From NCBI GenBank assembly GCA_021732525.1, contig JAKFUU010000018.1, positions 124,001 to 188,000 on the forward strand: a DNA stretch of 64,000 nt. The letters are read 5' to 3'. The notes beneath the pieces are model-generated. The model was given only the letters and a program-made list of their open reading frames with translations. It was not told the DNA's origin and made no database searches. Positions 712 to 54,515 of this stretch are shown here, one piece after another. The position numbers and the translations under genes were made by a program. Positions within the stretch are counted from its first letter, which is position 1. Each line of letters begins with the position of its first letter. Source of the DNA: Sphingomonadaceae bacterium. Lineage in GTDB: Bacteria > Pseudomonadota > Alphaproteobacteria > Sphingomonadales > Sphingomonadaceae.

Positions 712-719
712 TGACATCA
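712..719. promoter_or_regulatory. Operator-like palindrome (copy 1)
   Basis: TGACATCA core, 149 bases upstream of the VOC gene at 868. A TATAGA hexamer follows at 732-737 and could be a -10 box. It belongs to the family of 11 intergenic copies described in the findings. Confidence 0.45.
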
Positions 720-867
720 TGTTCAAATAGGTATAGAGCTGGGGCTGCAGGACCCGAAGTCGAAATTCGCATGTAGCGTATTTGCAGCCTTACTGTTGTG
801 CGCCAGTCGACTGGCGGTCGGAGCAGCTTGCTAGAGCCTCACGAGGCCAATTGAGAGAGGGGATAAT

Positions 868-1380
868 ATGTTCGAGTCGAACCAAATATTTCAGGCCGCA
901 TATGTCGTGGAAGATCTCGACGCAGCAATGGACAATTGGATGCGCGTCGCCCAGATCGGCCCGTTCTTCGTTTTGCCCGATTGCGCCCCCGATGTGATTT
1001 ACCGCGGCCAGCCTGGTGAACTTCTGGCAGATGTCGCCTTTTGCCAGGCCGGCTCTACAATGATCGAATTGATCAAGGTAAAGAGCGACGGCCCCAATCA
1101 TTATCGCGACACCGTTCCAAAAGGCACGGACGCATATCATCATCAAGGGTATTTTACCGATGACTTTGATGCCGAGGTCGCCCGTTTCGCGGCGATGGGC
1201 GTCGAAGCAGCATGCCTCGGGCAATTCGAGACAACGCGCTACGCCTATTTTGACACGACGCACCTTGTCGGTTGCATGACGGAGGTTCTGGAACGTGATC
1301 CGCTCATTCTCGATATGTTCAAGAAGGTCGCTGACGCTGCGGAAAACTGGGACGGCTCCGATCCGGTGCGAATGATCTGA
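868..1380 (+). CDS. VOC family (glyoxalase-like) protein
   Basis: This 170-residue protein has the vicinal-oxygen-chelate pattern: an N-terminal beta-alpha unit (QAAYVVEDLDAAMDNW) and a second unit beginning with HHQGYFTDDFDAEVARF, where the His could be a metal ligand. The family includes dioxygenases, isomerases, epimerases and glyoxalases that use a divalent metal; the reaction here is unknown. A purine-rich RBS (GAGAGAGGGG) precedes the ATG. It is the first gene of a plus-strand run with the DUF1214 protein, an SDR and a sulfotransferase, so all four probably work on the same compound. Confidence 0.75.
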   Translation: MFESNQIFQAAYVVEDLDAAMDNWMRVAQIGPFFVLPDCAPDVIYRGQPGELLADVAFCQAGSTMIELIKVKSDGPNHYRDTVPKGTDAYHHQGYFTDDFDAEVARFAAMGVEAACLGQFETTRYAYFDTTHLVGCMTEVLERDPLILDMFKKVADAAENWDGSDPVRMI

Positions 1381-1411
1381 GACGGGTAAGGTGACATAGC
1401 AGGAGAGGCGT

Positions 1412-2590
1412 GTGAACAGGGCAATTGGAAACTGGGACGAATATGTCGATCTTTTGAAGCCTGCAGGGCAGGATCTGCTCAAGCTATTATGGAAACCGGA
1501 AGATGATCAATACAAGGCGGATTTCTATCGCCAGTTGGTGATGAATATCAGCTATGCCTATTTCCAATATTTCCAGTCGAACAGCGAACACCCGGAATTC
1601 ATGCCGTTGTGGAATTCGGTGTTCATGTTTCAGCCCAATCCAGACGATGTTTATTACTACGCGCCGCTGGACGGCACAAAGCGCTATCGCATTGTGGGTG
1701 ATCGCGGCACCATCCGCATGCTGATGTTCCAGTTTGGCAGGGGCCTGATTGGTATGGTCGACGAAGTCGGCCAGCAATTCAGCAGTTTCCTGAATGACGA
1801 CGAAATAGTGCCAGGGCCGGACGGGAAATTCGAAATTCTCTTGTCAGCTACGCCGCCCGAACCGGGTTACAAGGGCATTTGGCACGAGATCCAGGAAGAC
1901 GTGGATTATACGCTTGTGCGTATGCGTTCCTACGACTGGGGCAACGAAATCGATACCCGCATGGCAATCGAATGCCTCGACGCGCCGCTTCAAAAGCGCC
2001 GGATGTCGGCCGCCGAGATTGACGAGCGACTGCGCCGCGCCCTTACGCTTTCAGAACGCTATTGCCCTCTAATGTACGGGCTGCAGAATGACTCTAAAGA
2101 AAAGATTGGTGTCAACAAGTTCAATCTTCAAACAAATCACGGCATCGGCCTTGTTCAGCAATATTATTGGGTGGCGTATTTTGAGGTGGGCGAGGATGAA
2201 GCGCTGATCCTGGAGACCGATATCCCGAAGGGCCGGTACTGGAACGTCCAGACCAACGATCCCTACTTCAACACTGTGGAATATGTCTACCGCCAGTCGA
2301 GTCTGAACGGACATCAGGCGCGACTGGACAGCGATGGAAAATTCCGTGCAGTGGTCTCGCATACTGATCCCGGCGTGCACAATTGGCTGGACACGGGCGG
2401 TTTTACCGAAGGTACGTTTTACGGCCGATGGACGCAATGCGAGAGCAATCCGCTGCCGACGCTCAAGCGGGTGAAGCTAGCCGACATCCGCCAGCACCTT
2501 CCCATCGATACGCCGGTGATCAGCGAGCCAGAGCGTCGCGAGATTTTGAGCAAGCGGCGCCTAGGTGCGCAGTTGCGACGTCGGTGGTGA
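1412..2590 (+). CDS. DUF1214 domain protein
   Basis: This 392-residue protein carries a C-terminal DUF1214-like region, recognisable from the block around ILETDIPKGRYWNVQ and the later FYGRWTQCESNPLPTLKRV. The biochemical role of the family is not established. Such proteins are common in sphingomonad and actinobacterial degradation clusters next to SDR and SnoaL-like genes. The start is GTG, eight bases after AGGAGAG, 31 bases after the VOC gene, so the two are likely co-transcribed. No signal peptide or membrane segment is visible. Confidence 0.7.
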   Translation: MNRAIGNWDEYVDLLKPAGQDLLKLLWKPEDDQYKADFYRQLVMNISYAYFQYFQSNSEHPEFMPLWNSVFMFQPNPDDVYYYAPLDGTKRYRIVGDRGTIRMLMFQFGRGLIGMVDEVGQQFSSFLNDDEIVPGPDGKFEILLSATPPEPGYKGIWHEIQEDVDYTLVRMRSYDWGNEIDTRMAIECLDAPLQKRRMSAAEIDERLRRALTLSERYCPLMYGLQNDSKEKIGVNKFNLQTNHGIGLVQQYYWVAYFEVGEDEALILETDIPKGRYWNVQTNDPYFNTVEYVYRQSSLNGHQARLDSDGKFRAVVSHTDPGVHNWLDTGGFTEGTFYGRWTQCESNPLPTLKRVKLADIRQHLPIDTPVISEPERREILSKRRLGAQLRRRW

Positions 2591-2638
2591 TTTAAAACCG
2601 GACACCAAGAAGCCAGCAATCAAGCAGGAGAGAATAAC

Positions 2639-3400
2639 ATGACCAATCGTTGGTCGAACGTCAGCTTCGACTTTTCAGGCGCCACGGTTCTGGTGACCGG
2701 CGGCACCAGCGGGATCGGAGCGTCCATCGCTGCAGCCTATCATGAAGCGGGTGCGGAAGTGATCATCACCGGTACCCGCGCGACGCCTGCCGACTATGAC
2801 ACCGATCTTTCGGCCTATCGCTATTTCCAGATGGACGTGGAGAAGCCCGAGCAAATCGACGCAGTCGCTGCGGCAATTTCGAAACTGGACATTCTGATCA
2901 ACAACGCTGGCTTTCTACTCGCCAGTGAGGCTGATGAGATGGATCCCGACAATTTTGAAAGGGCCATCAGGATTCACCTGCTCAGTTGCCAGCGACTCGC
3001 AGTGCGCTGCAAGGACAAGCTAGCGCAATCCAGGCTGCCCGGCGGAGCGTCTGTTATAGGTTTGGGGTCGCTTGGTTCCTATTTCGGTATGCTGGGTCTT
3101 GCTGGCTATGGACCGGCCAAAACGGGGCTGCTCGGACTCACGCGCAGTCTGGCTGTCACATGGGGAAGCGACAATATCCGCGTGAACGTCGTAGCGGCGG
3201 GCGCCATTGACACCCCTTTGTGTGCGTCCTTTCTGTCGAACCCCGAACAGTCTGGCCCGCATACAGCCCGCACCCCGCTAGGCCGGCTCGGCGTGACGGA
3301 CGATGTGAACGGGGTTGTCCTTTTCCTCACCAGCGGTGCGGCATCCTGGATCACCGGACAGACCGTTATGGTTGATGGCGGCTATACGATCTTTGGCTGA
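2639..3400 (+). CDS. SDR family oxidoreductase
   Basis: A classical short-chain dehydrogenase/reductase of 253 residues. The NAD(P)-binding TGGTSGIG lies near the N terminus, NNAG in the middle and a YGPAK catalytic Tyr-Lys pair in the second half, with a VDGGYTIFG C terminus. Such enzymes interconvert alcohols and ketones. The start has an AGGAGAG RBS. It lies 48 bases after the DUF1214 gene and 22 bases before the sulfotransferase start, so it is in the middle of one operon. The substrate is not predictable from sequence alone. Confidence 0.88.
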   Translation: MTNRWSNVSFDFSGATVLVTGGTSGIGASIAAAYHEAGAEVIITGTRATPADYDTDLSAYRYFQMDVEKPEQIDAVAAAISKLDILINNAGFLLASEADEMDPDNFERAIRIHLLSCQRLAVRCKDKLAQSRLPGGASVIGLGSLGSYFGMLGLAGYGPAKTGLLGLTRSLAVTWGSDNIRVNVVAAGAIDTPLCASFLSNPEQSGPHTARTPLGRLGVTDDVNGVVLFLTSGAASWITGQTVMVDGGYTIFG

Positions 3401-3422
3401 TCTACATATGGGAGTGGTTGCA

Positions 3423-4976
<1,554 letters not shown>

Positions 4977-7287: not shown

Positions 7288-8073
7288 TCATGGGAGAAGC
7301 AGTCCGCCATCGACGACTATGGAACTGCCCGTCACATATCGACTGTCTTCGCTGGCGAGGAACAGTACCGCATTTGCGATGTCGTTGGCATCGGCCATGA
7401 AGCCTAGTGGTACTGTTGCTTCGGCCATAGCACCCAATTCTTGCGGGGTCGGCGGAGCGCCATCTTCGCCATTGCCGAGATGGTCCCAGGCCGGCGTCGC
7501 TACCATGCCTGGATGCAGTGAGTTCACCCGGATGTTCATTTTTCCTTGTGCACACTCGAGCGCGGCAACTTTTGAAAGTTGAGCGACCGCGGCCTTGCTG
7601 GCGCAATAGGCTGACATGTTGGCATAGACCTTCATTGCAGCGGCTGATGACATATTGATTATGCTGCCGCCGCCACTCGCCGCGATTAACGGGATTGCGT
7701 GTTTCATCCCAAAAAACATGCCGTCGAGATTAAGCGCGAATACTTCGCGGAACGTTTCATACGACATGTCGACTAGCAGCGCAGATCGACCGATCCCAGC
7801 GTTATTCAGCAAGATATGCAAGCCACGATAGGCGGATTTCGTCTCAGCAATGGCTTCAACCCAAGCCGACTCCTTCGTAGCGTCAAGCGCAATGTAAGTG
7901 GCGCGTCCACCTGCGGCGCTAATACTTTCGACGACCGCGCGACCGCCCGTTTCCTGTATATCCGCAATCACTATCGCGGCGCCTTCCCTCGCCATGAGGA
8001 GTGCGGAAGCTTTGCCAATTCCCTGCGCACCGCCTGTGACTAGTGCAACTTTGTTATCGAGCTTTCCGGCCAT
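7288..8073 (-). CDS. SDR family oxidoreductase
   Basis: A 261-residue classical SDR with TGGAQGIG at the N terminus, NNAG, an NMSSAAA serine segment and YCASK. The C terminus (VDGGLLLP) is of the FabG/cyclohexanol-dehydrogenase style. A GGGAGAGG RBS precedes the ATG. It is divergent from the TonB receptor at 8294; one operator-like palindrome lies in the shared upstream region. It is probably the first gene of a minus-strand unit that continues into the MFS transporter and the next SDR. Confidence 0.88.
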   Translation of the reverse strand: MAGKLDNKVALVTGGAQGIGKASALLMAREGAAIVIADIQETGGRAVVESISAAGGRATYIALDATKESAWVEAIAETKSAYRGLHILLNNAGIGRSALLVDMSYETFREVFALNLDGMFFGMKHAIPLIAASGGGSIINMSSAAAMKVYANMSAYCASKAAVAQLSKVAALECAQGKMNIRVNSLHPGMVATPAWDHLGNGEDGAPPTPQELGAMAEATVPLGFMADANDIANAVLFLASEDSRYVTGSSIVVDGGLLLP

Positions 8074-8213: not shown

Positions 8214-8221
8214 TGACATCA
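8214..8221. promoter_or_regulatory. Operator-like palindrome (copy 2)
   Basis: TGACATCA core preceded by T, giving TTGACA, which also fits a -35 box. It lies 73 bases upstream of the TonB receptor ATG and within the divergent region shared with the SDR ending the minus-strand unit. Confidence 0.5.
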
Positions 8222-8293: not shown

Positions 8294-10702
8294 ATGAAAT
8301 TGCGTATACCTCGGAAGAGTTTGCTCGTTGGTGCCAGCTGTATCGCGGTTTCAACCGCATCAGGTGCATTTGCGCAACAGGGCGAAGAGGTGCCGCAGGC
8401 GACTGAATCGCGCTCCCAGAATCAATTCGACGAGATCATTGTGACCGCGCGCAAACGCGATGAATCGCTTATGGACGTTCCCGTTGCGGTTACTGCCATC
8501 GGTGCGGCTCAGCTCGAACGGACAGGCGCCGTCGGTCTTGAGCAGATCGCCCAGTTGGCGCCGCAGGTGATCATAGCTCGCGCAAGTTCGGGTGCAGGCG
8601 CGAGCCTCTCGATCCGCGGACTGGGCACGCCGTTTTTTGATCCGGCGGCCGAGAACAGTGTCGCAGTCAATATTGACGGCGTAGCGGCAAGCCGCGGCAA
8701 TATCATCTCTCAAGGCTTTTTCGACCTGCAGCAGGTTGAAGTTCTGAAAGGCCCTCAGGCGCTGTTCTTCGGAAAGAACAGCCCCGCTGGCGTCATTTCC
8801 CTGCGCAGTGTAAGCCCTAGCGATACGCTGGAAGGTTATGTGCGCGTTGGCTATGAGTTCGAGGCGCGTGAGCGCTATGCAGAGGCTGCAATTGGCGGAC
8901 CGCTGACTGAATCGCTAAGGGCGCGAATCGCAATTCGCGGGTCAAAGATGCGTGGCTGGCTGACCAACACGGCAGTACCACTGAATCCCAATCCGTTTTA
9001 CGGCGCTCCGACGCCGGGTGCCACATCGAAGGGCAACGGCGGCGAGGACATTCTTGGTCGCGTGACGCTGGTCTATGAACCGGGGTCGGATTTCGATGCC
9101 ACGCTCAAGGTCTCTGCAGGCAAGCACAAGGACAATGGCACGACCGGCCAAGCGGTTTGTGCGCCAGAAAGCGGCCTGACTCAGCCGACCATCTTCGGCT
9201 TCTTCAGTGATCCGGGCGGCGACTGTAAGTTCGACCAGCGTTACCAGAATGCATCCATAACAGAAACCTTTGCCAAGAACTACGTCCTCGGTCGTAATGG
9301 TAAACCCTATGCCGATAGCCAATCTATGCTGGCATCGTTGACCATGAATTATAATTTCGGCAATCTCACGCTCACCAGCGTAACTGGCTATTTCAAGTTG
9401 AAATACAAAAATTTAGCGGATTTCAGTTTTAGCAGCACAGCTACGAATTCATCCACCGCCGCCGAAGATACCGAGCGGTTCTCGCAGGAGTTACGTCTGG
9501 TCAGCGACTTCGATGGCCCGCTCAATTTTACGTTGGGGGGATATTATGAGGACGGTAAGGTCGATACCTTGGCCAGTGCGATATTCGTACCGGTGTATGA
9601 TCCCGTCGCCGACACTTTCCAGTCCTATGTCTATGAGTCGGGCGTCGACAGCAAGGCCCTATCAGTATTCGGCCAGCTGCGTTGGGAAATCGTGGAACAA
9701 CTGGAGCTTGCCGGCGGCGTTCGTTATAGCCGTGACAGGAAGAGCATCACTCAGGGTCAGTTGTATGTGAACCCGGCTTTCGGATTTATCCGTACCGCAG
9801 GTGATTTCCTGAGCGGCAAGTTCAAGGACAGCAACTGGTCACCCGAAGTGACACTGTCCTGGAAGCCCAACGATGACGTCCTCGTGTATGGCGGGTTCAA
9901 GACAGGTTACAAAGGCGGTGGTATCGGCACCCCGGCCCTGTTGGCGGCTGGTCAAGTGCTCTCTGATATTTCGTATGGAAGCGAAACAATTAAGGGCTTC
10001 GAAGGCGGGGTAAAGGCCGAACTGCTGGATCGCACGGCGCGCGTTCAGTTGACCGCCTATAGCTATGACTATAGCAATTTGCAGATCAGCGTTTTTGACC
10101 AGACGCTGTTCCAGTTCCGCTTGGCGAACGCGCCGTCGTCTCGGATCAAGGGACTGGAATTGGCGGGTGAGTTGCGTCCCGTTAATGGCCTCTCGCTGAA
10201 CGCGGCTCTGGCTTACAATGACGCCAAATATACTTCTTTCCCGTCTTTTGCGTGCTACCAGTACCAGACCATAGCGCAGGGCTGTACGGGCGGGGTTGTA
10301 GATCCAGTCACTGGGTTCGTCGCGGGTGGGCAACAGTCCCTCACGGGCCGATCCTTGTCGCGCGCGCCCAAATGGGCAGTAAATGCCGGCTTCAATTACG
10401 ATCATGAAATGGGTAACGGCATCGGCATTGGCATCAATGCCGATGCCAACTACTCCAGCGGCTATGATGCGGCGGAAGATAAGGCACCGGTCGCTCGACA
10501 GAAATCCTATTGGCTGCTCAATGCCGGCGCTCGGGTCTATTCAGATGATGCCGGTTGGGATTTGTCCATTGTCGGCCGCAATCTGACCAACAGATACTAC
10601 CGGCACATTGCGCACGGAAAGAGCGGTGGCTCGCCGTTTGAGTATACGACTTACCTGCCGCGCACCCGTGAGATTCGCGTTCAGTTGGGCTATAAGTTCT
10701 AA
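8294..10702 (+). CDS. TonB-dependent outer membrane receptor
   Basis: An 802-residue outer-membrane receptor. A signal peptide ends around AFAQ (residue 27-28), then a TonB box (DEIIVTARKRDE), a plug domain with the conserved LEVLKGPQ-type element (VEVLKGPQALFFGKNSPAG) and a 22-strand barrel ending GYKF with a terminal aromatic residue. In sphingomonads such receptors import many organic substrates besides iron chelates. The RBS (AGGTGAGGGAGAG) is clear, a palindromic operator lies 73 bases upstream and a strong terminator follows at 10723. It is likely a single-gene unit for uptake of the island's substrate. Confidence 0.92.
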   Translation: MKLRIPRKSLLVGASCIAVSTASGAFAQQGEEVPQATESRSQNQFDEIIVTARKRDESLMDVPVAVTAIGAAQLERTGAVGLEQIAQLAPQVIIARASSGAGASLSIRGLGTPFFDPAAENSVAVNIDGVAASRGNIISQGFFDLQQVEVLKGPQALFFGKNSPAGVISLRSVSPSDTLEGYVRVGYEFEARERYAEAAIGGPLTESLRARIAIRGSKMRGWLTNTAVPLNPNPFYGAPTPGATSKGNGGEDILGRVTLVYEPGSDFDATLKVSAGKHKDNGTTGQAVCAPESGLTQPTIFGFFSDPGGDCKFDQRYQNASITETFAKNYVLGRNGKPYADSQSMLASLTMNYNFGNLTLTSVTGYFKLKYKNLADFSFSSTATNSSTAAEDTERFSQELRLVSDFDGPLNFTLGGYYEDGKVDTLASAIFVPVYDPVADTFQSYVYESGVDSKALSVFGQLRWEIVEQLELAGGVRYSRDRKSITQGQLYVNPAFGFIRTAGDFLSGKFKDSNWSPEVTLSWKPNDDVLVYGGFKTGYKGGGIGTPALLAAGQVLSDISYGSETIKGFEGGVKAELLDRTARVQLTAYSYDYSNLQISVFDQTLFQFRLANAPSSRIKGLELAGELRPVNGLSLNAALAYNDAKYTSFPSFACYQYQTIAQGCTGGVVDPVTGFVAGGQQSLTGRSLSRAPKWAVNAGFNYDHEMGNGIGIGINADANYSSGYDAAEDKAPVARQKSYWLLNAGARVYSDDAGWDLSIVGRNLTNRYYRHIAHGKSGGSPFEYTTYLPRTREIRVQLGYKF

Positions 10703-13393: not shown

Positions 13394-14218
13394 TTAGCAG
13401 TAACTGAGATTCATCCGATTGAAGTCGCTATAATGCGGCATATGCATGGTTATACCGCCATCAATGACAATATTCTGACCGGTGATGAATTGCGCATCAT
13501 CAGAACACAAATATAAAGCCATGCTAGCCACGTCCTCAGGCTTGCCGAGCTGAGGAGTCAGCGTATTTTCTTCCAATATGGTCAGCACTTCGCCGAACAC
13601 ATGTTGTGCACCACCCTCCGTAAGGATCACGCCCGGGCAAACGCAATTGCATCGCAGACCCTGCTTGCCGTAAATGACGGCGATGTTGCGCGCTAGGTTG
13701 ATCACTGCTGCCTTGGAGGCACCATAAGCAATATTTGACATGCTCCCCAGGATGCCGGCACCAGAGGAGGTCATCACGATAGACCCTTGGCCTTGGTCGA
13801 GCATGTGGGGAATAGCGAATTTGCACCCCGCAAGATAGCCGCGGACATTCGCTGCCATGATCCGATCCCACCATTCAAAGTCGATATTGACCGGATCGGT
13901 GTCGTTGACATTAGCCTCGACGGACATCAGCGCAGCATTGTTAAAGAGAAAGTCCAACCGGCCGAATTGGTTGACCGTCGTGTCGATCATTTTCTCGACT
14001 GAAGCAACATCAAGTGCATCAAACTGGATCGGCAATACCCTGTCGCCCAGTGCATGGGCGAGCTCGCATGCCTTTTCATCGTTGATATCGCCGATAGCCA
14101 CATAGGCCCCCGCTGCTGCGAAGCGCTTTACAGCTGCGGCGCCAATGCCAGAGGCGCCACCAGTTACGACCGCAACTTTTCCTTCGATGCCTCGCACCCT
14201 GGACTCCTTTTCGACCAT
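13394..14218 (-). CDS. SDR family oxidoreductase
   Basis: A 274-residue classical SDR with TGGASGIG, NNAA, a TSSGAG serine segment and YGASK. The C-terminal IDGG motif is followed by an unusual tail (ITMHMPHYSDFNRMNLSYC). The ATG at 14218 is the first start; a GTG seven codons later has AAGGAG upstream and may be the real one. It is the first gene of the minus-strand SDR-SDR-EthD unit. A palindromic operator lies 27 bases upstream of the ATG. Confidence 0.87.
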   Translation of the reverse strand: MVEKESRVRGIEGKVAVVTGGASGIGAAAVKRFAAAGAYVAIGDINDEKACELAHALGDRVLPIQFDALDVASVEKMIDTTVNQFGRLDFLFNNAALMSVEANVNDTDPVNIDFEWWDRIMAANVRGYLAGCKFAIPHMLDQGQGSIVMTSSGAGILGSMSNIAYGASKAAVINLARNIAVIYGKQGLRCNCVCPGVILTEGGAQHVFGEVLTILEENTLTPQLGKPEDVASMALYLCSDDAQFITGQNIVIDGGITMHMPHYSDFNRMNLSYC

Positions 14219-14244: not shown

Positions 14245-14252
14245 TGATGTCA
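14245..14252. promoter_or_regulatory. Operator-like palindrome (copy 3)
   Basis: TGATGTCA core with AT-rich flanks, 27 bases upstream of the SDR ATG at 14218. On the minus strand it reads TTGACATCAT. Confidence 0.5.
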
Positions 14253-14392: not shown

Positions 14393-14400
14393 TGACGTCA
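14393..14400. promoter_or_regulatory. Operator-like palindrome (copy 4)
   Basis: TGACGTCA core, fully self-complementary, in the context ATTGACGTCAC, 158 bases upstream of the CoA-transferase start at 14558. Confidence 0.5.
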
Positions 14401-14557: not shown

Positions 14558-15454
14558 ATGAGCAAACTCGCACCCTTAAGCGCGATCGATGATTTGGTAA
14601 GGGACGGAGACATGGTGGCGTTGGGAGGTGGTTGGCTTGCCAACCACCCAATGGCAGCAGTTCGTCAGTTGATCCGCAGTGGAAAGAAGGATCTTCGCTT
14701 GGTGTCGAACATCGGTTCGATCGATGTCGATCTTCTGGTTGCTGGTGATTGCGTTGCCGAGGTTCATTACTCAATGGTGTCTCTTGAAGCGTTCGGCTTC
14801 GCTAATCACATGCGCGCTGGATTTGAAAGTGGCCGGGTCAAGGCAAAGGAAATTCCGGGTCTCGCCATGCTCATCGGGCTTGATGCTGCGGGTCGCGGCA
14901 TACCGTCAATCTCTTATGTGGGACCCTTTGGTTCGGATCTGATTGATTGCAACCCCGATCTCAAGCGAGTCAAGTGCCCGTTCAGCGATAGAGACATGAT
15001 AGCCGTGCGGGCAATAAAGCCCGATGTGGCGCTGCTCCACGTGACGCGATGTGACAGTGACGGGAACGCGCAGTGGCACGGAACGGTTGCACCAGATGTT
15101 GTCATGGGCAAAGCTGCCAAGCGCGTGATCATAACCTGCGAGGAGGTCGTGAGCCGCGGGGAAATCGTGAAAACGGCGGCTGCCACAGGTCTTCCGGGTT
15201 ACTATGTTGAGGCGGTTATAGAAGTACCCTTCGGTGCACACCCGTGTTCGCATGTCCCCCGCTACGCGATGGACGCTTTCAACATATGGGACTATTCGGA
15301 ACTCAAGCCCGGCGACCCCAAGCTTGCGGATTTTATCGCCCGGCTTCGGGGGGAAAGTGAAGTCGAATATCGCGCCCGGGTTCTGGATCGCGAAACAGCG
15401 CAGATCCTGCGCACTCTGGCCGATCTCGGCCGTCCTCTGGCGGAGGCCGCGTGA
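14558..15454 (+). CDS. CoA-transferase subunit A (IpdA/GctA-like)
   Basis: A protein of about 298 residues of the class I CoA-transferase alpha type: an N-terminal DLVRDGDMVALGGG loop, then IGSIDVDLLVAGDCVAEVHYS and a YVGPFGSDL segment. The best-known relatives in catabolic clusters are glutaconate CoA-transferase and the steroid ring-opening hydrolase IpdAB. The frame is open from 14405 through the CAG repeats, but the ATG at 14558 (MSKLAPLS) matches the family N terminus. The stop overlaps the start of subunit B, so the two form one heteromeric enzyme. Confidence 0.82.
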   Translation: MSKLAPLSAIDDLVRDGDMVALGGGWLANHPMAAVRQLIRSGKKDLRLVSNIGSIDVDLLVAGDCVAEVHYSMVSLEAFGFANHMRAGFESGRVKAKEIPGLAMLIGLDAAGRGIPSISYVGPFGSDLIDCNPDLKRVKCPFSDRDMIAVRAIKPDVALLHVTRCDSDGNAQWHGTVAPDVVMGKAAKRVIITCEEVVSRGEIVKTAAATGLPGYYVEAVIEVPFGAHPCSHVPRYAMDAFNIWDYSELKPGDPKLADFIARLRGESEVEYRARVLDRETAQILRTLADLGRPLAEAA

Positions 15455-22736: not shown

Positions 22737-23051
22737 GATCAGCAACCGAATCAGCTGACTAAGCTTATGCTCGAAGAATCTGGTTCTCGGTATATTGAAG
22801 GCGGTGGTACACAACAAGTGTTACTGCGGACGCATTGCTTGCGTCTCAAAAATCCGGCGAGCGAGAAAAGGTTCGAACTGGCACCAAACCCGAGTTCTAT
22901 AAAGGGTAAAACCTATACGGAAACGCCCAACGCTATACTCGTAAGTAGAGCATCTAAAAACGCAATATTGACGTCATATTATTAGTAGTATAGCTGGCTA
23001 ACTGATGCAGCTGCTGTCATGCATTAATATGCTGCCGAGAAGGAGGCTGGA
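22737..23051. promoter_or_regulatory. Promoter region of the cupin-SDR operon
   Basis: A 315-base gap without a gene. It holds a short hairpin (GACGCA 22829-22834, TGCGTC 22840-22845) and an operator-like palindrome at 22969-22976 followed by TATAGC at 22989-22994, a possible -10 box. Confidence 0.45.
22969..22976. promoter_or_regulatory. Operator-like palindrome (copy 5)
   Basis: TGACGTCA core flanked by CAATAT on the left and TATTATTA on the right, 76 bases upstream of the cupin gene. It is among the best matches to the extended motif. Confidence 0.55.
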
Positions 23052-23609: not shown

Positions 23610-23639
23610 AAAACACTAAAAGGGATATGGTCGAACGCC

Positions 23640-31710: not shown

Positions 31711-31718
31711 TGATGTCA
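31711..31718. promoter_or_regulatory. Operator-like palindrome (copy 6)
   Basis: TGATGTCA core between the divergent TonB receptor (start 55 bases away) and the HyuB gene (start 37 bases away). It lies just upstream of the likely -35 of the receptor. Confidence 0.55.
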
Positions 31719-35482: not shown

Positions 35483-36553
35483 CTAGCGGCAGTTTTCCAT
35501 TGCATTGCGCGCCAGTGCGGCAAGCCTCGGCAGTGCTGCGGTCCGTTCCCGGGCCTGAGCATTGCTGGCCGTGCCGCGCAGTACCCGACCTTTGATGCCG
35601 TGGAAGATTGCAGCAAGGCGAAACAAGTTGAAGGCCAGATAGAAATCCCAGTTGGGAATGCTCTCTCGTCCCGTTCGATCACAATAGACGGCTATATACT
35701 TTTCCTCGGACGGCAAACCGAGTGGGATTGGATCCTGTCCGCCGAGGCCGGCCACAATATCGCCCGGCATATGGTACATCATCGCGTGATAGGCAAAATC
35801 CGCCAGTGGGTGCCCCAGCGTCGAAAGCTCCCAATCCAGCACTGACAAAATACGTGGCTCGGTAGGGTGGAAAATCATATTGTCGCAGCGGAAATCGCCA
35901 TGGACGATGCTGGTTTCGTCGCCTTCAGGGACTGCTGTGGGTAGCCATTCGACAAGTGCGTCCATATCCGGCAAGCGACCAGCGAGTTCATCGTCGAGAT
36001 ACTGCTTGCTCCAGCGCCCGATCTGTCGGGCGAAATAGTTGCTAGGGCGCCCATAGTCTCCCAGGCCTGCTGCCTGATAATCAACGCTGTGCAGCGCCGC
36101 GATCACACGGTTCATTTCGTCGAAATAGTCGGCACGTTGATCTAGGGGAACTTCAGGGAAGGTTGCGTCCCAAAACACCCGGCCTTCGACCATCTCCATC
36201 ACGTAGAACTCGCTGCCGATCACGGCTTCGTCGACTCCCAAAGCGAAAATACGCGCCACCGGCACGTCGGTTCCGGCCAGTGCCTGCTGCACCCTTGCTT
36301 CCCGCAGAACGTCGTGCGCGCCTTTCAGCAGAGGCCCTGGCGGTTTGCGCCGCAGCACATAGCGCGTACCAGGCGTCGTCAGGCGATAAGTGGGATTGGA
36401 TTGGCCTCCGTTGAACTGTTCCACCGTCAGCGAACCAGAGAAACCAGTCACATGTTGTTCCATCCACGAAGCCAGTGCCGCTTCATCGAAGGTCACGCGA
36501 ACCTTTCCAGTTCCCGTGGTCGCAGCCACTACGTCGTTGTTCGACTCACGCAT
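35483..36553 (-). CDS. APH-family phosphotransferase (LvaA/ACAD10-like)
   Basis: A protein of about 356 residues of the aminoglycoside-phosphotransferase/choline-kinase-like fold: VEQFNGGQSNPTYRL, VLRRKPPGPLL, catalytic VHGDFRCDNMIF and VLDWELSTLGHPLADFAYH. The ATG at 36553 overlaps the end of the acyl-CoA dehydrogenase gene by eight bases. This kinase-dehydrogenase pairing is the one known from LvaA/LvaC and the eukaryotic ACAD10/ACAD11 proteins, where the kinase phosphorylates 4-hydroxyacyl-CoA. Similar function is inferred here. An upstream start at 36682 would overlap the dehydrogenase too far. Confidence 0.85.
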   Translation of the reverse strand: MRESNNDVVAATTGTGKVRVTFDEAALASWMEQHVTGFSGSLTVEQFNGGQSNPTYRLTTPGTRYVLRRKPPGPLLKGAHDVLREARVQQALAGTDVPVARIFALGVDEAVIGSEFYVMEMVEGRVFWDATFPEVPLDQRADYFDEMNRVIAALHSVDYQAAGLGDYGRPSNYFARQIGRWSKQYLDDELAGRLPDMDALVEWLPTAVPEGDETSIVHGDFRCDNMIFHPTEPRILSVLDWELSTLGHPLADFAYHAMMYHMPGDIVAGLGGQDPIPLGLPSEEKYIAVYCDRTGRESIPNWDFYLAFNLFRLAAIFHGIKGRVLRGTASNAQARERTAALPRLAALARNAMENCR

Positions 36554-37730
36554 TGGCATGCTTCCAGTCACGGCCGATCTTCTTTGCAAGGCTCCACTTG
36601 TGGACCTCGGTCGGGCCGTCGTAGATGCGGAAGGCGCGGACCTCGCGGAACATCGTTTCCACAATAGTCTGGTCGGCAACACCCGTTCCGCCCATCACCT
36701 GAACACACTTGTCAGCAACGCGCATCAGCGCCTCTGACACTGCGACTTTGGTCATGCTGCTTTCCACCGTTCCGAGCGAACCCGTATCGAGCACGCCAGC
36801 GCACCAATCGATCATCAGTTCGATCTGTTTCAAGTCGATCATGTTTTCAGCCAGCATGAAACCCACGCCTTCATGATCGATCAACTGCTTGCCAAAAGCC
36901 ATGCGGCGGTTGGCATAATCGGTGGCGATCTCCTGCGCTCGGATGCAGCCACCCAGCCAGCGCATGCAGTGCGACAGTCGTGCCGGGCTGAGGCGGATTT
37001 GGGCATATTTGAAGCCTTCGCCCGCGTCGCCCAGCATCTGGTCGGCCGGGATGCGCAGATTGTCGATGCTGATGTCCGCATGCCCGCCCGGCATCGAACT
37101 GTCTATCGTGTTGGGAACGTTTGTGATAGTGATCGCCGGATCGGGCAGATCTATCAGGAACAGGCAGGCCCCACCCTTCGTGTCCGGTTCCTCAGATTTG
37201 GCCATGACGATACCCACCTTCGCGCCGTCCGCTCCGGTAATGAAGCATTTTTTGCCATTGACCACCCAGTGGTTGCCGTCGCGGTGGCAAGTGGTGATCA
37301 TCATTGAGGGGTCAGCGCCCGCACCTTGCAGTTCAGCCGGCTCGGTCATAAAGAATGCTGATCTTGCACGCCCCTCAACGAGTGGCTTTAGGAACCGAGC
37401 TTTCAGGTCTGGATTGCCGACATGGCCGATCAGATACATATTGCCTTCGTCGGGCGCCTGCGTGTTGCAAGCAAGCATGCCCAATGGAGTAAGGCCCGAC
37501 TTGATGAGGATCGCTGCGGTTTCCCGCTGGTTGAAGTGGCTGCCGTTGGGACGGATGTGCGGTGTCAGCACTCCCGCATTGCGCGCCAGTTCGCGCATTT
37601 CCATCACTAGCTCATCGGTTGGGGCACCATGATGGTCGCGGCGGAAGTCCTGTTCGTACGGGAATATCCTACCCCGCACGAACGCCTCAACCCTTGCCGC
37701 CATTTCAAGCGCTTCGTTGCTGATCGTCAT
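36546..37730 (-). CDS. Acyl-CoA dehydrogenase (LvaC/ACAD11-like)
   Basis: A 394-residue acyl-CoA dehydrogenase. FAD-domain elements include FFMTEPAELQGAGADP and WVVNGKKCFITGADG; the C terminus FRIYDGPTEVHKW has the DGP-TEV variant seen in ACAD10/11- and LvaC-like proteins. With the overlapping kinase it may convert a phosphorylated 4-hydroxyacyl-CoA onwards to the 3-hydroxy isomer, rather than perform a simple desaturation. It is divergent from the aldolase at 37930, with one palindromic operator between them. Confidence 0.87.
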   Translation of the reverse strand: MTISNEALEMAARVEAFVRGRIFPYEQDFRRDHHGAPTDELVMEMRELARNAGVLTPHIRPNGSHFNQRETAAILIKSGLTPLGMLACNTQAPDEGNMYLIGHVGNPDLKARFLKPLVEGRARSAFFMTEPAELQGAGADPSMMITTCHRDGNHWVVNGKKCFITGADGAKVGIVMAKSEEPDTKGGACLFLIDLPDPAITITNVPNTIDSSMPGGHADISIDNLRIPADQMLGDAGEGFKYAQIRLSPARLSHCMRWLGGCIRAQEIATDYANRRMAFGKQLIDHEGVGFMLAENMIDLKQIELMIDWCAGVLDTGSLGTVESSMTKVAVSEALMRVADKCVQVMGGTGVADQTIVETMFREVRAFRIYDGPTEVHKWSLAKKIGRDWKHANA

Positions 37731-37813: not shown

Positions 37814-37821
37814 TGATGTCA
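37814..37821. promoter_or_regulatory. Operator-like palindrome (copy 7)
   Basis: TGATGTCA core (TTGACATCAT on the minus strand) with AT-rich flanks, in the 199-base divergent region. It is 84 bases from the acyl-CoA dehydrogenase ATG and 109 bases from the aldolase ATG. Confidence 0.52.
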
Positions 37822-37929: not shown

Positions 37930-38697
37930 ATGTCTCAAAATCCCGGTCAGGACGCTCTGCGCCACATCTCACGTAAGGTTGGTGTGCCACCTTTAGGCAT
38001 CTTCATTGCCTCGGTGGACCCGTCCACGACCGAGATCGCCGCTGATGCCGGCTTCGACTATGCCGTCATAGACGCAGAACATGGTCCGCTGGATCGACTG
38101 ACGGTTCTTGGTCATGTCCGGGCGGCCGAAGCCAGCGGGATCATTCCTTTGGCCCGCATCCTTGATTGCTCCGACCAAACTATCCAGTCGATGCTCGACG
38201 TGGGCCTGAAAGGCGTCATGGTCCCAAAGGTGGAGAGCGCCGAGCAAGCAGCCCAGATCGTCGCGGCCACGCGCTATGCGCCCGAAGGCAAACGCGGCAT
38301 GTGCCCTGCTTGTCACGATGGACGCTATACTATGATCGACTTCACGAACCGTATGCGGAAACGCAACCTGGAGGCTCTTGCCATCCCGATCATCGAGACG
38401 CGCAAGGGCGTCGAGAATATCGAGGCAATCGTGGCGGTCAAGGGTATGAACATCGTCCACTTCGGACCAGGTGACCTGTCTGCGGACATGGGGCTGAACC
38501 TAGAGACCGACGCCCACTTGCTGCAGGAGGCCTGGGTCCATGTGCGGGATGTTTCCCGCGCTGCGGGGAAAGCAGTTCTCGTTTCGGCAAATCTCGGATT
38601 CGAGGGCGCTGATGCGCATATCTTGCCGATGGAACTGATGATCTTGAGCACCACTCTGACAAAGTTGGCGGCGGACGTACGCGCAGGGTTGGCTTAA
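37930..38697 (+). CDS. HpcH/HpaI class II aldolase family protein
   Basis: A 255-residue TIM-barrel aldolase. DAGFDYAVIDAEHGPLD holds the conserved acid-His pair, and VPKVESAEQAAQIV and FGPGDLSADMG carry the metal-ligand Glu and Asp segments. The family makes and breaks carbon-carbon bonds to pyruvate or acetaldehyde-type donors with a divalent metal. It may cleave a hydroxy-oxo acid produced by the catabolic pathway. It is followed after 23 bases by an AhpD-like gene. Confidence 0.87.
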   Translation: MSQNPGQDALRHISRKVGVPPLGIFIASVDPSTTEIAADAGFDYAVIDAEHGPLDRLTVLGHVRAAEASGIIPLARILDCSDQTIQSMLDVGLKGVMVPKVESAEQAAQIVAATRYAPEGKRGMCPACHDGRYTMIDFTNRMRKRNLEALAIPIIETRKGVENIEAIVAVKGMNIVHFGPGDLSADMGLNLETDAHLLQEAWVHVRDVSRAAGKAVLVSANLGFEGADAHILPMELMILSTTLTKLAADVRAGLA

Positions 38698-45003: not shown

Positions 45004-45011
45004 TGACGTCA
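45004..45011. promoter_or_regulatory. Operator-like palindrome (copy 8)
   Basis: TGACGTCA core. On the minus strand it follows TATAGA by four bases, so it covers the likely transcription start of the acyl-CoA dehydrogenase gene, a typical repressor position. Confidence 0.55.
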
Positions 45012-45289: not shown

Positions 45290-45311
45290 ATAATATTGAC
45301 GTCAATATTAT
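45290..45311. promoter_or_regulatory. Operator-like palindrome (copy 9), 22-bp perfect
   Basis: Two perfect 11-base arms, ATAATATTGAC and GTCAATATTAT, meeting at the centre of TGACGTCA (45297-45304). It is 160 bases upstream of the acyl-CoA dehydrogenase at 45472 and is the best copy of the shared motif. Confidence 0.65.
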
Positions 45312-45471: not shown

Positions 45472-46644
45472 ATGTTCATGGACTTCGAACTTGGCGAAGA
45501 GAAGCGGCAGCTTCGCTCCACCCTTCGCAGCTTCTTCAAGAAAGAAGCGCCTACAGCCGAGATCAGCCGCCTGGATCGCGAAGCCACCTTTCCGCGCGAA
45601 ATCTATCGCAAAATGGCGGACCTGGGTCTTTGCGGTATCACCATTCCAGAGGAATTTGGCGGCTCGCCTTTGGATGAGATTTCTCGATGCATCGTATTGG
45701 AAGAAATCGCGCGTGCGGGCGGCTGCCTCGTTTACTCCTTCGCACCAACTGTGGCCTTCAGCGCGGTTGGGATCCAGCGATATGGTAGCGATCGCCAAAA
45801 GCAGGAATTCCTTCCGAAGATCGCATCGGGAGACTTGCGTATTGCGATGGGCCTAAGCGAACCCGCTTCTGGTTCAGATCTTGCCAGTCTTTCAACCAGA
45901 GCAACGCTGGATGGTGATATATATGTGATCAACGGGCAGAAAATCTGGACGACTGGCGCTGACACTTCGGAATATATCATGACTTTCGTCAGGACCGACA
46001 ATGAGACGAAAGGACATCAGGGTCTTTCGATCCTCTTGGTTGATCGAAACTTGGAGGGGATTGACGTCCGCCCTATCCCGAAACTCGCCGGGCAGGCCAC
46101 ACACACTTGCGAAGTATTCTTCGATAATGTGCGTGTCCCTGCGGAGAATCTGCTTGGGCCGCTTGGTGGCGGCACCAAGTTGATCTTCAGTTTGCTCGAT
46201 GCAGAGCGGGTTTACGTCGCAGCGCAAGCTTGTGGCATTGCACAAGGCGCCTTTGAACAGGCGCTGGGCTATGCCAAGGAGCGCAAGCAGTTTGGCGTTG
46301 AAATCATCCATCATCAGGCCGTAGGTCACATGCTGGCGGAAATCGCGGCCGAGATTCATGCGGCGCGGCTTACCTGCTGGCAGGCGGCGTGGCGGCTCGA
46401 TCAAGGGTTGTCTTGTTCGACGGAAGCGGCGGTCGCGAAGATCATCGCCAGCGAGACCGCAACCCGCTGTATTGGAAAGGCAATGCAGGTGATGGGGGGC
46501 TATTCCTATGCCGTCGAATTCCCTCTCGAACGATATTGGCGCGAAACCAAGCTGTTCGAGATTGCTGGTGGATCCAACCAGATACAGCGGAACATAATCG
46601 TCAAAAATCTGCTCAAGCAGGATGATCTTGATTATGCACCGTAG
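45472..46644 (+). CDS. Acyl-CoA dehydrogenase
   Basis: A 390-residue acyl-CoA dehydrogenase with AMGLSEPASGSDLASL and YVINGQKIWTTGADT in the FAD domain and VMGGYSYAVEFPLERYWRE near the end. The loop EIAGGSNQIQRNI lacks the Glu of the YEGTSE-type proteins, as in the dehydrogenase at 43833. ATG codons at 45472 and 45478 are both possible after AAAGGAAA. It starts a plus-strand unit with two SDR genes, one of them DECR2-like, so it likely serves a beta-oxidation of an unsaturated or ring-derived acyl-CoA. Confidence 0.87.
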   Translation: MFMDFELGEEKRQLRSTLRSFFKKEAPTAEISRLDREATFPREIYRKMADLGLCGITIPEEFGGSPLDEISRCIVLEEIARAGGCLVYSFAPTVAFSAVGIQRYGSDRQKQEFLPKIASGDLRIAMGLSEPASGSDLASLSTRATLDGDIYVINGQKIWTTGADTSEYIMTFVRTDNETKGHQGLSILLVDRNLEGIDVRPIPKLAGQATHTCEVFFDNVRVPAENLLGPLGGGTKLIFSLLDAERVYVAAQACGIAQGAFEQALGYAKERKQFGVEIIHHQAVGHMLAEIAAEIHAARLTCWQAAWRLDQGLSCSTEAAVAKIIASETATRCIGKAMQVMGGYSYAVEFPLERYWRETKLFEIAGGSNQIQRNIIVKNLLKQDDLDYAP

Positions 46645-46707
46645 AATTGCCCGTCAGTTGTGGCTTTGAGCCAAGGCGCGGCTCGTCAAGTCGGCGGAAA
46701 ATTAAGG

Positions 46708-47478
46708 ATGGACGATATGCAGGACTTCCAGGGCAAGACTGCCTTCATAACAGGTGCATCGACAGGACTTGGCTTGCACTTCGCCGAAATTCTTGCCCGT
46801 CATGGATGTGCTGTAATGTTAGCCGCACGCAGGGCTGATCTGTTAAAAGAGCATGTGAATCGACTTAGGGGTGAGGGCCATATTGCGGAGGCCATTAGCC
46901 TCGATGTTCGTGATACGGCCGCGATAATATCCGCTCTGGACGAGGCAGAAAAGCTGCTCGGTCCGCTGTCTGTCCTGGTCAATAATGCTGGGATTGCACC
47001 CGGCAATCCTGCTCTTGCGGTTGAACAGGCCGAATGGGACCAGGTTTTCGAGATCAACAGCCGAGGTGTGTTCTTTGGTTCGACGGAAGCGGCGCGCCGT
47101 ATGATCGCGAACGGTACCGCTTCGAGGGGAGATGCCCGCATTTTGAACATCTCTTCGATCACCGCCCAAATGGTGACGCCTGGCCTTTCTGCCTATTCGG
47201 CGTCAAAAGCGGCGGTGTCGTCCCTGACCAAAATTTTGGCTCGTGAATGGGCGAGGTCAGGCATATCGGTGAATGCGTTGTGTCCGGGATATATCGAGAC
47301 CGAAATGAACAGCGACTGGTTTGCCTCGGAAGGCGGCGAAGCGCAAATAAAGTCGTGGCCACGGCGTCGGATGATCCCCGTCGATACTCTTGACGACATT
47401 TTCCTAGCGTTGTGTGGCAAGGCAGGCCGGTATATCACCGGCTCACTGTTTACCATTGATGACGGGCAAAGCTTGTAG
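46708..47478 (+). CDS. SDR family oxidoreductase
   Basis: A protein of about 256 residues with TGASTGLG, NNAG, NISSITA and YSASK and a truncated C-terminal IDDGQSL element in place of the usual VDGG. The frame opens at 46660; ATG at 46708 or 46717 is more plausible from spacing to AAGG and GGCGGA. It follows the acyl-CoA dehydrogenase at 45472 by 63 bases and precedes the DECR2-like SDR by 73 bases. Confidence 0.85.
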   Translation: MDDMQDFQGKTAFITGASTGLGLHFAEILARHGCAVMLAARRADLLKEHVNRLRGEGHIAEAISLDVRDTAAIISALDEAEKLLGPLSVLVNNAGIAPGNPALAVEQAEWDQVFEINSRGVFFGSTEAARRMIANGTASRGDARILNISSITAQMVTPGLSAYSASKAAVSSLTKILAREWARSGISVNALCPGYIETEMNSDWFASEGGEAQIKSWPRRRMIPVDTLDDIFLALCGKAGRYITGSLFTIDDGQSL

Positions 47479-47551
47479 GCTGCAAATTGCGGCTCTCGCC
47501 TTGCCGCTAACGAGTGGTTGAGATTTACTTCCCTGAATTAAGGAAATCGAA

Positions 47552-48367
47552 ATGCAGGACAAAACCGATCGTAAGGCGCCTTCCCCTCACACCTACGATG
47601 GAAAGGTTGTCTTCATCGCTGGCGCATCGAGCGGCATTAACCTTAGTATTGGCCAAGCTTTTGCGCGGGCTGGTGCGAAGGTGGCTCTGATCAGTCGGAG
47701 CTTGGACAAGATCACGGCAGCGACAAAAACTATCACAGATGAAGGCTACGAGGCGATTGGTATGGCTGCAGACGTGCGGGATTATCAAGCTGTCGAAGAT
47801 GCGCTGAAGCTTACCGCCAGTCAATTCGGCAAGATTGATGTTGTCGTTTCCGGTGCGGCCGGCAACTTTCCTGCTGCGGCCTTGGACATGAGCGCTAACG
47901 GTTTCAAGACGATTATCGACATCGACCTCATCGGCACATTCAACGTGTTTCGCGCGTCGTTTGAGTTCCTCAGTCGCCCGGGCGCGTCACTGATTGCAAT
48001 TTCGGGCCAAGCTCCGCGACCCACAATGCATCAGTCGCATGTTTGTTCAGCCAAAGCTGGCGTCAACATGTTGACTCAGTGCCTAGCGATGGAATGGGGA
48101 CAAGCGGGCGTGCGTGTCAATGCCATTGCGCCAGGCATGATCGGCGACACTGAGGGTATGCGGCGTCTGGCGCCCAGTGTAGCCGAGGATCAGGCCAATG
48201 CAGGCAGCATTCCCTTGCGCGCCTATGGCGCGAAGGATGATATCGCTGATGCAGCACTTTTTCTATCGTCGGACAGCGCCCGCTACATTACCGGTGCGAT
48301 CCTCTTCGTGGACGGCGGCTTAATTCTTGGCGACTCGAGCACAACTGCTAGGCCGGGTATCGGATGA
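47552..48367 (+). CDS. SDR of 2,4-dienoyl-CoA reductase (DECR2) type
   Basis: A 271-residue SDR. The cofactor loop is GASSGINLSIG and the position of the catalytic Tyr is not Tyr: the segment reads HQSHVCSAKAGVN, with Val four residues before the Lys. The same absence is known for peroxisomal 2,4-dienoyl-CoA reductases (QVHAGSAKAAV in DECR2), and the following LAMEWG is shared with them. It would reduce a 2,4-dienoyl-CoA with NADPH. It ends the acyl-CoA dehydrogenase-SDR-SDR unit; a terminator follows. Confidence 0.8.
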   Translation: MQDKTDRKAPSPHTYDGKVVFIAGASSGINLSIGQAFARAGAKVALISRSLDKITAATKTITDEGYEAIGMAADVRDYQAVEDALKLTASQFGKIDVVVSGAAGNFPAAALDMSANGFKTIIDIDLIGTFNVFRASFEFLSRPGASLIAISGQAPRPTMHQSHVCSAKAGVNMLTQCLAMEWGQAGVRVNAIAPGMIGDTEGMRRLAPSVAEDQANAGSIPLRAYGAKDDIADAALFLSSDSARYITGAILFVDGGLILGDSSTTARPGIG

Positions 48368-48408: not shown

Positions 48409-48430
48409 CACGCTGTTGAGTGTGTTTCGC

Positions 48431-49340: not shown

Positions 49341-49366
49341 CTCCTAACTTTAACCGCTTAAAAACT

Positions 49367-50629
49367 TCAAGCGGTGAACGGATCAAACCGGACCGGCAAG
49401 CGCTTTGGCCCCGTGACATTGTTCGACGCGAGCCACTCTACTTCACCGGCTATTTCGATGTTCCTAAACCTGTTGATCATCGCGCTTACTAACGTCTTCA
49501 TTTCCAGTCGAGCGAGGTTCCTGCCAAGACAAAGATGCGGCGAAGCGGCTGCGTTGAACGTCAAATGCGGGTTTGGGTTGCGGGTCACATCAAATTTGGT
49601 CGGGTGGTGGAAAACTCTCTCATCTCGATTGCCCGAGACAAGCCAGCTGACAACCCAGTCGTCCTTTTTGATAAGCTTGCCACCCAACTCAATATCGCGA
49701 GTGGCGACACGCAGCGTATGCTTACTGGGATTTGACCAGCGCAAAACTTCCTCGATTGCCGTGTCAATTAGCGAGGGCTCGGCCCTGACCAAGTCGGCCT
49801 GTTCAGGATTTTGCAGCATAGCATGCATGCCGGTCGCGAAGCCGTTCCGTGTTGTATCGAGTCCGCCGACAACCATCGTCCAGCACCACCAACCGACATA
49901 ATACATATCCCAAGGCTCGCCATCGGTACTCATGCTTGCAATCAGACTGACAAGATCATCTCCCGGGTTCTTCCGTCGCTCTGCCGCAAGCGGGCTCAGA
50001 TATTCATACAATTCTTGAAAAGCACCAAATCTGCTCTCGTTTGCGGATTCGCCCGGGCGACGAAACTCCGGGTCGGTGGAGCCTTGGATGAGGTTTGCCA
50101 AGCGGTCCATCAAAGGCCAGTCCTGTTGAGGTATGGCCATCAAGTCCAAGATCAAACGAAGCGGGAGCTGGCCCGCTACCTCGTCGACGAGATCGCATGA
50201 GCCACGCGGGGCGACTTCCGCAACTATATCACCAGTTATGCGATCGATGGTTGAAACCATCTTGTTGATCACATGAACTGTGAAGTGCTTGTTGAAGGGG
50301 CGCCGGTAGGTAAGATGGCTGGGCGCATCTACAAAAGTAGGTATTGCATCAAACCCAAGCGCATGGTGATCCATTGCAAGAAAAGCGACCGGGTCGGGGG
50401 GCAAATTCCCACCATATTTGGAACTGAAGGTTTCAGCGTCGGTCTGAACCTGAATGATATCGGCATGTCTGGTGACATGCCAGAGCGGACGGCCATAGGA
50501 ATTGTCCGTCCAATGTACGGGATCGTGATCACGCAAAAGCTTGAATGAATCGTGATAACCGTCAGACGTATAGTACTCATCCAACGTAATATTATCGTCA
50601 ATTTCTTTCCAGTCCACATCCGTCTCCAA
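49367..50629 (-). CDS. Cytochrome P450
   Basis: A 420-residue soluble bacterial P450. The I-helix oxygen-binding motif is VVGGLDTTR, the ExxR motif EEVLR. The haem loop reads FNAAASPHLCLGRNLARLE: the Cys ligand and the following Gly are present, but alanines and Ser replace the usual FGxG glycines and the Phe lies nine residues before the Cys rather than seven or eight. Hydroxylation of a pathway compound is expected, with the adjacent ferredoxin as redox partner. The start is ATG at 50629; the upstream region carries an operator-like palindrome at 50863. Confidence 0.92.
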   Translation of the reverse strand: METDVDWKEIDDNITLDEYYTSDGYHDSFKLLRDHDPVHWTDNSYGRPLWHVTRHADIIQVQTDAETFSSKYGGNLPPDPVAFLAMDHHALGFDAIPTFVDAPSHLTYRRPFNKHFTVHVINKMVSTIDRITGDIVAEVAPRGSCDLVDEVAGQLPLRLILDLMAIPQQDWPLMDRLANLIQGSTDPEFRRPGESANESRFGAFQELYEYLSPLAAERRKNPGDDLVSLIASMSTDGEPWDMYYVGWWCWTMVVGGLDTTRNGFATGMHAMLQNPEQADLVRAEPSLIDTAIEEVLRWSNPSKHTLRVATRDIELGGKLIKKDDWVVSWLVSGNRDERVFHHPTKFDVTRNPNPHLTFNAAASPHLCLGRNLARLEMKTLVSAMINRFRNIEIAGEVEWLASNNVTGPKRLPVRFDPFTA

Positions 50630-50862
50630 ATTTATCGCATCACCACCCGAGCGCCGCCAGCAGAGTTCGTATTTGCACTTGAGCAGCGCTCCAATTCTAT
50701 CAGATGATGCTGCTAAAAGTTGCTACTTCCAAGCAATCCGGCAGGGCGAACCCACTTTCCAGATGCGACCTCCGCTTGCCGCATATGAGCAACTCCCTCG
50801 TGATCCCTTTAGCGAACTCTTTCCAAACTAATCCAGTAGTGATGGGTAACAAATGATAAGGT

Positions 50863-50870
50863 GATGTCAA
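50863..50870. promoter_or_regulatory. Operator-like palindrome (copy 10)
   Basis: TGATGTCA core (TTGACATCAC on the minus strand), 234 bases upstream of the P450 start. Confidence 0.5.
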
Positions 50871-51106
50871 TCTTTCTTTTTAGCTGTTTCAGATTTGCGA
50901 ACCCGAACGCTGGGTTGAGCCCTACAGACATTAGCGTTCAATGCAGAGCGCGCGCATGCACCGGCTGACGAGCAAATTGGCGCGGATCATGGCGCGCATG
51001 CATCATCTCCACTCTATCCAACGTTTGACGGCTGGCGCTTCGAGCGCCACGCCCCTCTTGAGCGCGGAATTTTACACTCCCGTAAGCCGACAATCAAATG
51101 TTTCAA

Positions 51107-51114
51107 TGACATCA
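51107..51114. promoter_or_regulatory. Operator-like palindrome (copy 11)
   Basis: TGACATCA core followed by TGTTTTTTTATA, 236 bases upstream of the small ORF at 51350 and 381 bases upstream of the fbiC GTG. It links the F420 operon to the shared motif set. Confidence 0.5.
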
Positions 51115-54513: not shown

Positions 54514-54515
54514 AC

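Follow-up and report, generated by a model that had tools for sequence, protein, structure and literature searches.

The 64-kb window analysed here (C2:124001-188000, from a contig of a Sphingomonadaceae bacterium) lies in a catabolic island of 80 kb, which carries TonB receptors, SDRs, a CoA-transferase pair, a cupin-led operon, HyuB/HyuA, three acyl-CoA dehydrogenases, P450s and an F420 operon. The Pfam scans took in most called island genes and bear out the gene types that the first-pass annotation had listed as served by one shared operator. Genes were called with a script of our own, and since these calls do not come from an annotation, all start codons are approximate. The element under study is a palindrome with the core TGAYRTCA and A/T-rich arms. 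Sixteen intergenic sites span 80 kb from C2:108714 to C2:188983, which places the start of the regulon about 15 kb before the left edge of the window and its end just beyond the right one. By a rough operon rule, 54 out of 71 island genes are led by a site, while the sulphate-activation block of CysQ, CysNC and CysD at the right end, the LuxR-type gene and the TetR gene have none. We propose that this palindrome probably serves as operator for a TetR-family protein whose gene lies at 61851-62516, and which would repress the island until a pathway intermediate binds to it.

The core occurs 16 times in the window, 11 times between and five times within genes, whereas 100 dinucleotide shuffles average 4.03 copies and reach 14 at most. 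For the 7,750 intergenic bases, which hold the 11 cores, 200 dinucleotide shuffles average 0.40 copies and never exceed 2. The first-pass annotation had allowed that a background model might expect 11 intergenic copies, which is not what the shuffles give. All of its 11 sites are present and intergenic by our gene calls, ten of them with the exact start and one shifted from 50863 to 50862. It had noticed two intragenic copies; our calls place three cores of the variants it named (3617, 41837, 57745) inside genes, along with two further cores reading TGATATCA (25361, 30078). None of these five is among the 45 top-scoring places of the weight-matrix scan described below. For the whole island, 16 intergenic cores were observed versus 0.66 expected (maximum 4 in 200 shuffles). 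It is the position of the ANNNTGAYRTCANNNT matches, not their genome-wide number, that stands out: 13 out of 29 in the genome fall within C2:108710-174873, about 2% of its length. The total of 29 is inside the range of 12-36 found for 36 genus mates, and the bare core has no clear excess over the genome (223 copies in 3.01 Mb versus about 190 from the window shuffle mean scaled up); both speak against singularity of the motif at genome scale.

Aligned in both orientations, the sites extend to the full palindrome A-N4-A-N3-TGAYRTCA-N3-T-N4-T, with A at 91% in the position four bases ahead of the core. A weight matrix was trained on the 16 island sites and scanned across 185 kb of the contig. 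The sites score from 21.9 to 35.8 and the best non-overlapping other places 17.1 (coding) and 14.9 (185-kb scan), a gap which is partly circular because the same 16 sites trained the matrix. The best score elsewhere in the genome was 18.7, where the matrix was applied to stretches around core matches and most of the genome was covered by pattern search alone. The distance from site to gene start varies from overlap with the called start up to about 400 bp. A reading of TTGACR as a -35 element was rejected, as 46 site-gene pairs show no enrichment of a -10 element 17 bp downstream.

A test free of this circularity is provided by a second genome of the family, G741. The pattern WWNDTGAYRTCAHNWW was counted in 347 family genomes, and sites were listed for eight of them, picked by eye and not by rank, either because their counts were high or because they surpassed other members of their genus. 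Site positions were examined in full for G641, G741, G755 and G988 and in part for G839, leaving out G530, G035 and G011; other family genomes may hold further motif clusters. G741, with five WWNDTGAYRTCAHNWW sites within 49 kb, was chosen on motif count and clustering ahead of any TetR search there. When the island-trained matrix is run over a 100-kb stretch of G741, 19 matches exceed a score of 14, all at 1165-1227 kb (bounds drawn around the matches afterwards), and 18 of them lie outside called genes. The intergenic DNA holds 18 matrix matches versus 0.10 expected, and 15 cores versus 0.79. Among 256 palindrome classes, TGAYRTCA is the commonest in the intergenic DNA of both islands taken together (16 and 15 copies); the runner-up, which has TGACGTCA in common with it, reaches 4 and 5. 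Together with the shuffle statistics, this second island supports the earlier suggestion of a shared operator and one regulon.

The G741 island encodes enzymes of up to 84.5% identity to those of the source island, and two TetR proteins that are 57 and 60% identical to the one in the window. The recognition segment SLGAFYRYF is identical across all three. A TetR search of 337 family genomes gave matches at E<=1e-12 in five, namely the source genome, G741 and three others at 28-33% identity, with a close orthologue in the source genome and G741 only. The chance that the sole other genome with a close TetR (1 of 336) falls among the eight picks is about 2.4%, and about 0.6% for the two clusters that were followed.

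The first-pass annotation would expect the motif ahead of orthologous operons. Where the TetR is present, 13 out of 17 reciprocal-best pairs between the islands are site-led in both, which adds little because base rates alone predict about 11 (20 G741 sites were used, one scoring just 11.9). The G741 orthologues of the cupin gene behind site 22969 and of the acyl-CoA dehydrogenase gene that comes first behind site 45297 are site-led, too. Around F420 genes alone the motif is absent: 29 FbiC copies from 26 other genomes of the order, with flanks of about 1.5 kb at most, gave six bare cores and no matrix score above 13.4, and 35 stretches around FbiC orthologues (L157, L158 and L184 included) a best score of 14.3. 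FbiC itself is present in 27 of the 396 genomes sampled from the order, source genome included.

Three regulators were found among the scanned island genes: an HxlR protein, a protein of LuxR type that matches GerE weakly, and the TetR protein P0001. The latter has an N-terminal TetR helix-turn-helix (PF00440) and also matches solved TetR proteins. Since a related island in another genome combines the same switch with the same kind of repressor, it is probably this TetR that reads the switch. The link is one of co-occurrence; direct binding, repression and an inducer are inferred. Of the two proteins named by the first-pass annotation, the TetR is the most likely regulator and the LuxR-type protein (60500-61612) is disfavoured. 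P0001 scores 49 bits against the ScbR equivalog of NCBIfam (NF041196), whose curated cut-off is 150, and its structure model is too poor for use (pLDDT 38).

Table. Operator cores and candidate regulators; positions refer to the window unless prefixed with C2.
Feature	Position	Strand	Context	Score
Operator core TGACATCA	712..719	.	before glyoxalase-type, DUF1214, SDR, sulfotransferase genes (868-4688 +)	matrix 27.7
Operator core TGACATCA	8214..8221	.	between SDR (7288-8073 -) and TonB receptor (8294-10702 +)	matrix 30.3
Operator core TGATGTCA	14245..14252	.	before SDR (13394-14218 -)	matrix 29.6
Operator core TGACGTCA	14393..14400	.	before CoA-transferase pair (14558-16314 +); orthologous pair in G741 also site-led	matrix 32.5
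Operator core TGACGTCA	22969..22976	.	before cupin, EthD-type, ECH, CoA-transferase III, SDR genes (23052-27139 +)	matrix 27.6
Operator core TGATGTCA	31711..31718	.	between TonB receptor (29500-31656 -) and HyuB/HyuA (31755-35443 +)	matrix 21.9
Operator core TGATGTCA	37814..37821	.	between acyl-CoA dehydrogenase/APH-family pair (35483-37730 -) and HpcH/HpaI aldolase (37930-38697 +)	matrix 33.0
Operator core TGACGTCA	45004..45011	.	before acyl-CoA dehydrogenase, GST, SDR, epimerase, AMP-binding genes (44972-39908 -)	matrix 26.0
Operator core TGACGTCA	45297..45304	.	before acyl-CoA dehydrogenase and two SDRs (45472-48367 +)	matrix 35.8 (top)
Operator core TGATGTCA	50862..50869	.	before P450, SnoaL, ferredoxin genes (50629-48431 -)	matrix 31.4
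Operator core TGACATCA	51107..51114	.	before F420 operon FbiC, F420_oxidored, CofE, CofD, CofC (51495-56886 +)	matrix 28.0
Five intergenic sites outside the window	C2:108714, 118089, 119510, 121525, 188983	.	from gene calls and matrix scan	
LuxR-type protein P0003	60500..61612	+	disfavoured as regulator	GerE E=0.016, below curated cut-off
TetR-family protein P0001	61851..62516	-	proposed regulator	PF00440 E=4.4e-11

According to Pfam, the operon behind site C2:118089 comprises AtuA, biotin carboxylase and carboxyltransferase, and the one behind C2:121525 is of LLM/P450 type. The right end of the island (L024:7601-10031, i.e., C2:187601-190031) carries IS110-type and rve transposase genes. The operator at 188983 is located 231 bp from the called start of the IS110 gene, without a neighbouring catabolic operon, and is perhaps a remnant.

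Several observations weigh against the TetR protein as reader of the operator. Autoregulation is common among TetR proteins, yet the 260 bp preceding the window tetR lack a core, and so do those preceding its two G741 orthologues. The site keeps no fixed spacing to a -10-like element (46 site-gene pairs, site 188983 excluded). G988 shows three motif matches within 21 kb (L195 14054, L196 15636), of which the best score 21.8 and 13.4 and one adjoins hydantoinase-type genes, but the 60 kb analysed from this genome contain no TetR relative; G988 is also absent from the five TetR-matching genomes, its inclusion in the 337-genome sample being uncertain. The survey of other DNA-binding domains in G741 took in 10 further genes and those with relatives in the source island. 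Finally, we examined the promoters of 13 distant TetR homologues (23-34% identity; two start sites guessed). Strong sites in their own promoters, which count in favour of the TetR, occur in two, from G533 and G850, which are 90% identical to each other. The G349 homologue has a weaker CGATGTCG (score 19.8), the one of Rhodococcus WAY2 only a TGAC-N6-GTCA, and the remaining nine have nothing within 300 bp.

In a wider reading, a TetR clade would travel with a mobile catabolic island and read AAAANTGAY half-sites that either abut (TGAYRTCA, in enzyme promoters) or stand 6 bp apart (TGAY-N6-RTCA, in regulator promoters and a few composite sites). In G533 and G850, a 24-bp inverted repeat, AAAAGTGACATTGACATCACTTTT, begins 67 and 81 bp before the called TetR start (scores 29.3 and 33.7); it contains TGACATCA and as a whole reads TGAY-N6-RTCA. 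In Rhodococcus WAY2, five TGAY-N6-GTCA palindromes flanked by AT-rich sequence are spread over 16.6 kb, and one of them directly precedes the TetR gene. Intergenic N6 sites number two per island (source 109719 and 118083; G741 1196250 and 1220911). These pairs are no commoner than several other spacings in the islands, which makes the two-arrangement reading less likely, and we regard it as a tentative and rather doubtful extension. As a guess, the N6 form might consist of two overlapping dimer sites, the spacing setting occupancy by one or two dimers. A TetR-query scan returned 48 distant loci with 22-51% identity over the matched stretch, and the 15 loci of the Cupriavidus type have no place above score 11. 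Close to its start codon, the window tetR shows a degenerate match to TGAC-N6. Three Flavobacteriaceae-type contigs carry a near-identical element around TGACATCA about 1.4 kb before a TetR-type match (L118 3242, L122 8585, L123 8585).

It is improbable, in our judgement, that the sites are read by another regulator, be it the HxlR protein (C2:119066-119446) or a protein whose gene lies elsewhere in each of the two genomes. The HxlR gene lies within the island with two sites beside it, and our regulator survey covered the islands only. However, its orthologues (86-87% identity) in Sphingobium RAC03 and Sphingomonas aerolata, 2 of 1,100 matching plasmid records, sit next to one divergent NAD(P)-binding gene with best scores of 3.0 and 0.8, and no called gene of G741 matches HxlR at E<=1e-8. 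HxlR, our first candidate because it is located between two sites, was dropped since its orthologues form a two-gene module lacking a scoring site. The pair of HxlR and a divergent F420_oxidored-like gene (L005:18209-19446) recurs on two Sphingobium/Sphingomonas plasmids.

There is a slight chance that the TetR protein binds the sites and activates, or acts in two ways. Variable distances from site to start would be compatible with this, but TetR proteins investigated so far are mostly repressors, as the family is described in PMC3511530. Because the spacing to a -10-like element is not fixed, steric repression suits the sites better than activation from a fixed position.

The second candidate was the LuxR-type protein P0003, for which the site can be written as 7-2-7, ANNNTGA-YR-TCANNNT, a geometry suiting a GerE-type dimer. 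Its gene is part of the island and adjoins CysD/CysNC/CysQ, its orthologues (52-58%) adjoin steroid-type catabolic genes on Sphingobium and Novosphingobium plasmids, and in the G741 matches conservation is lower at the central YR than at TGA/TCA. Against this stand 35 stretches around orthologues, with a best matrix score of 6.7 and a few bare cores; six are from plasmids, where 16 records carry an orthologue of 52-58% identity, and the others are 23 loci and six larger stretches from genomes. The only LuxR-type homologue listed for G741 (35%) is located about 850 kb from the motif cluster, and its 18-kb stretch is without a match above 8. The candidate was rejected for this lack of scoring sites around its orthologues, and we hold a role as reader of the operator to be very unlikely. 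CysQ, CysNC, CysD and the LuxR-type gene (56799-61612) occur in the same order on the Novosphingobium EMRT-2 plasmid pABRDHK22, with no operator in the block. Sulfotransferase genes are also found in the island.

That chance or an AT-rich composition accounts for the count can practically be dismissed: the bare core lacks a clear genome-wide excess and some relatives exceed the genome in total extended matches, but shuffled intergenic DNA of the island stays far below the 16 observed cores and the pattern is repeated in G741.

Under the preferred reading, TetR dimers would bind the operator ahead of most operons of the island and hold off uptake receptors, oxidoreductases, acyl-CoA enzymes, P450s and F420 synthesis. 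A pathway intermediate would then bind the TetR and free the operons; it is probably either an acyl-CoA or a lipophilic compound of alicyclic or isoprenoid type. Repression until a pathway compound arrives would fit the TetR family, and it is proposed because most TetR proteins studied repress and such repressors are often released by a ligand. The presence of AtuA, acyl-CoA and P450 genes suggests an isoprenoid, alicyclic or steroid-like compound as the ligand.

In its architecture, the putative regulon resembles that of KstR, the TetR of lipid and cholesterol catabolism in mycobacteria, as far as the latter is described in PMC1995591. In both cases one TetR repressor would act on one palindrome, repeated intergenically across a large set of catabolic genes, with many sites between divergent genes and a region with two copies (PMC1995591). 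For KstR, which represses its own gene via the operator TnnAACnnGTTnnA, binding and derepression have been demonstrated (PMC1995591), whereas the putative operator of the island regulon is TGAYRTCA, and no core precedes tetR. Within the window, TnnAACnnGTTnnA matches at three places, where 0.50 would be expected and a single one of 100 shuffles gets to 3; two are intragenic and one is at 45055, none of them at the 11 sites. EdcR, the TetR repressor of the oestradiol cluster of Caenibius tardaugens, has a proposed palindrome, TnnCnnTACnAnTnGTAnnGnnA, in divergent promoters as well, but is described for a single steroid cluster of two operons (PMC8700777); up to one mismatch, TnnCnnTACnAnTnGTAnnGnnA has no match in the window. 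AtuR/RdmA of Pseudomonas represses an acyclic terpene cluster with atuA and carboxylase genes, both of which are also found in the island, from the operator AGCAAGCGCTTGG (PMC9973270). Only two-mismatch matches of AGCAAGCGCTTGG occur in the window, 6 versus 2.49 expected (6 of 100 shuffles reach 6). As these operators are not the one of the island, the system would work like KstR but is not KstR, operator and protein being different. RutR of E. coli, also a TetR protein, has the consensus TTGACCAnnTGGTCAA and shares its half-site, TGAC/GTCA, with the N6 sites found near some of the TetR homologues, but its half-sites are 6 bp apart and not 0 as in the island operator; the window has one two-mismatch match of TTGACCAnnTGGTCAA (0.16 expected). 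A literature search, with subscription papers mostly outside its reach, found no bacterial TetR system with TGACGTCA or TGACATCA and nothing on F420 with Sphingobium.

From a biological point of view, the analysis offers a testable pair of regulator and operator for an 80-kb island with F420, P450, sulfotransferase and acyl-CoA enzymes. The operator flags those operons that probably belong to the pathway, and the ligand of the TetR would point to its substrate. Since the same pairing recurs in another genus, the pathway may well be transferred or inherited as a unit with its regulator and operator.

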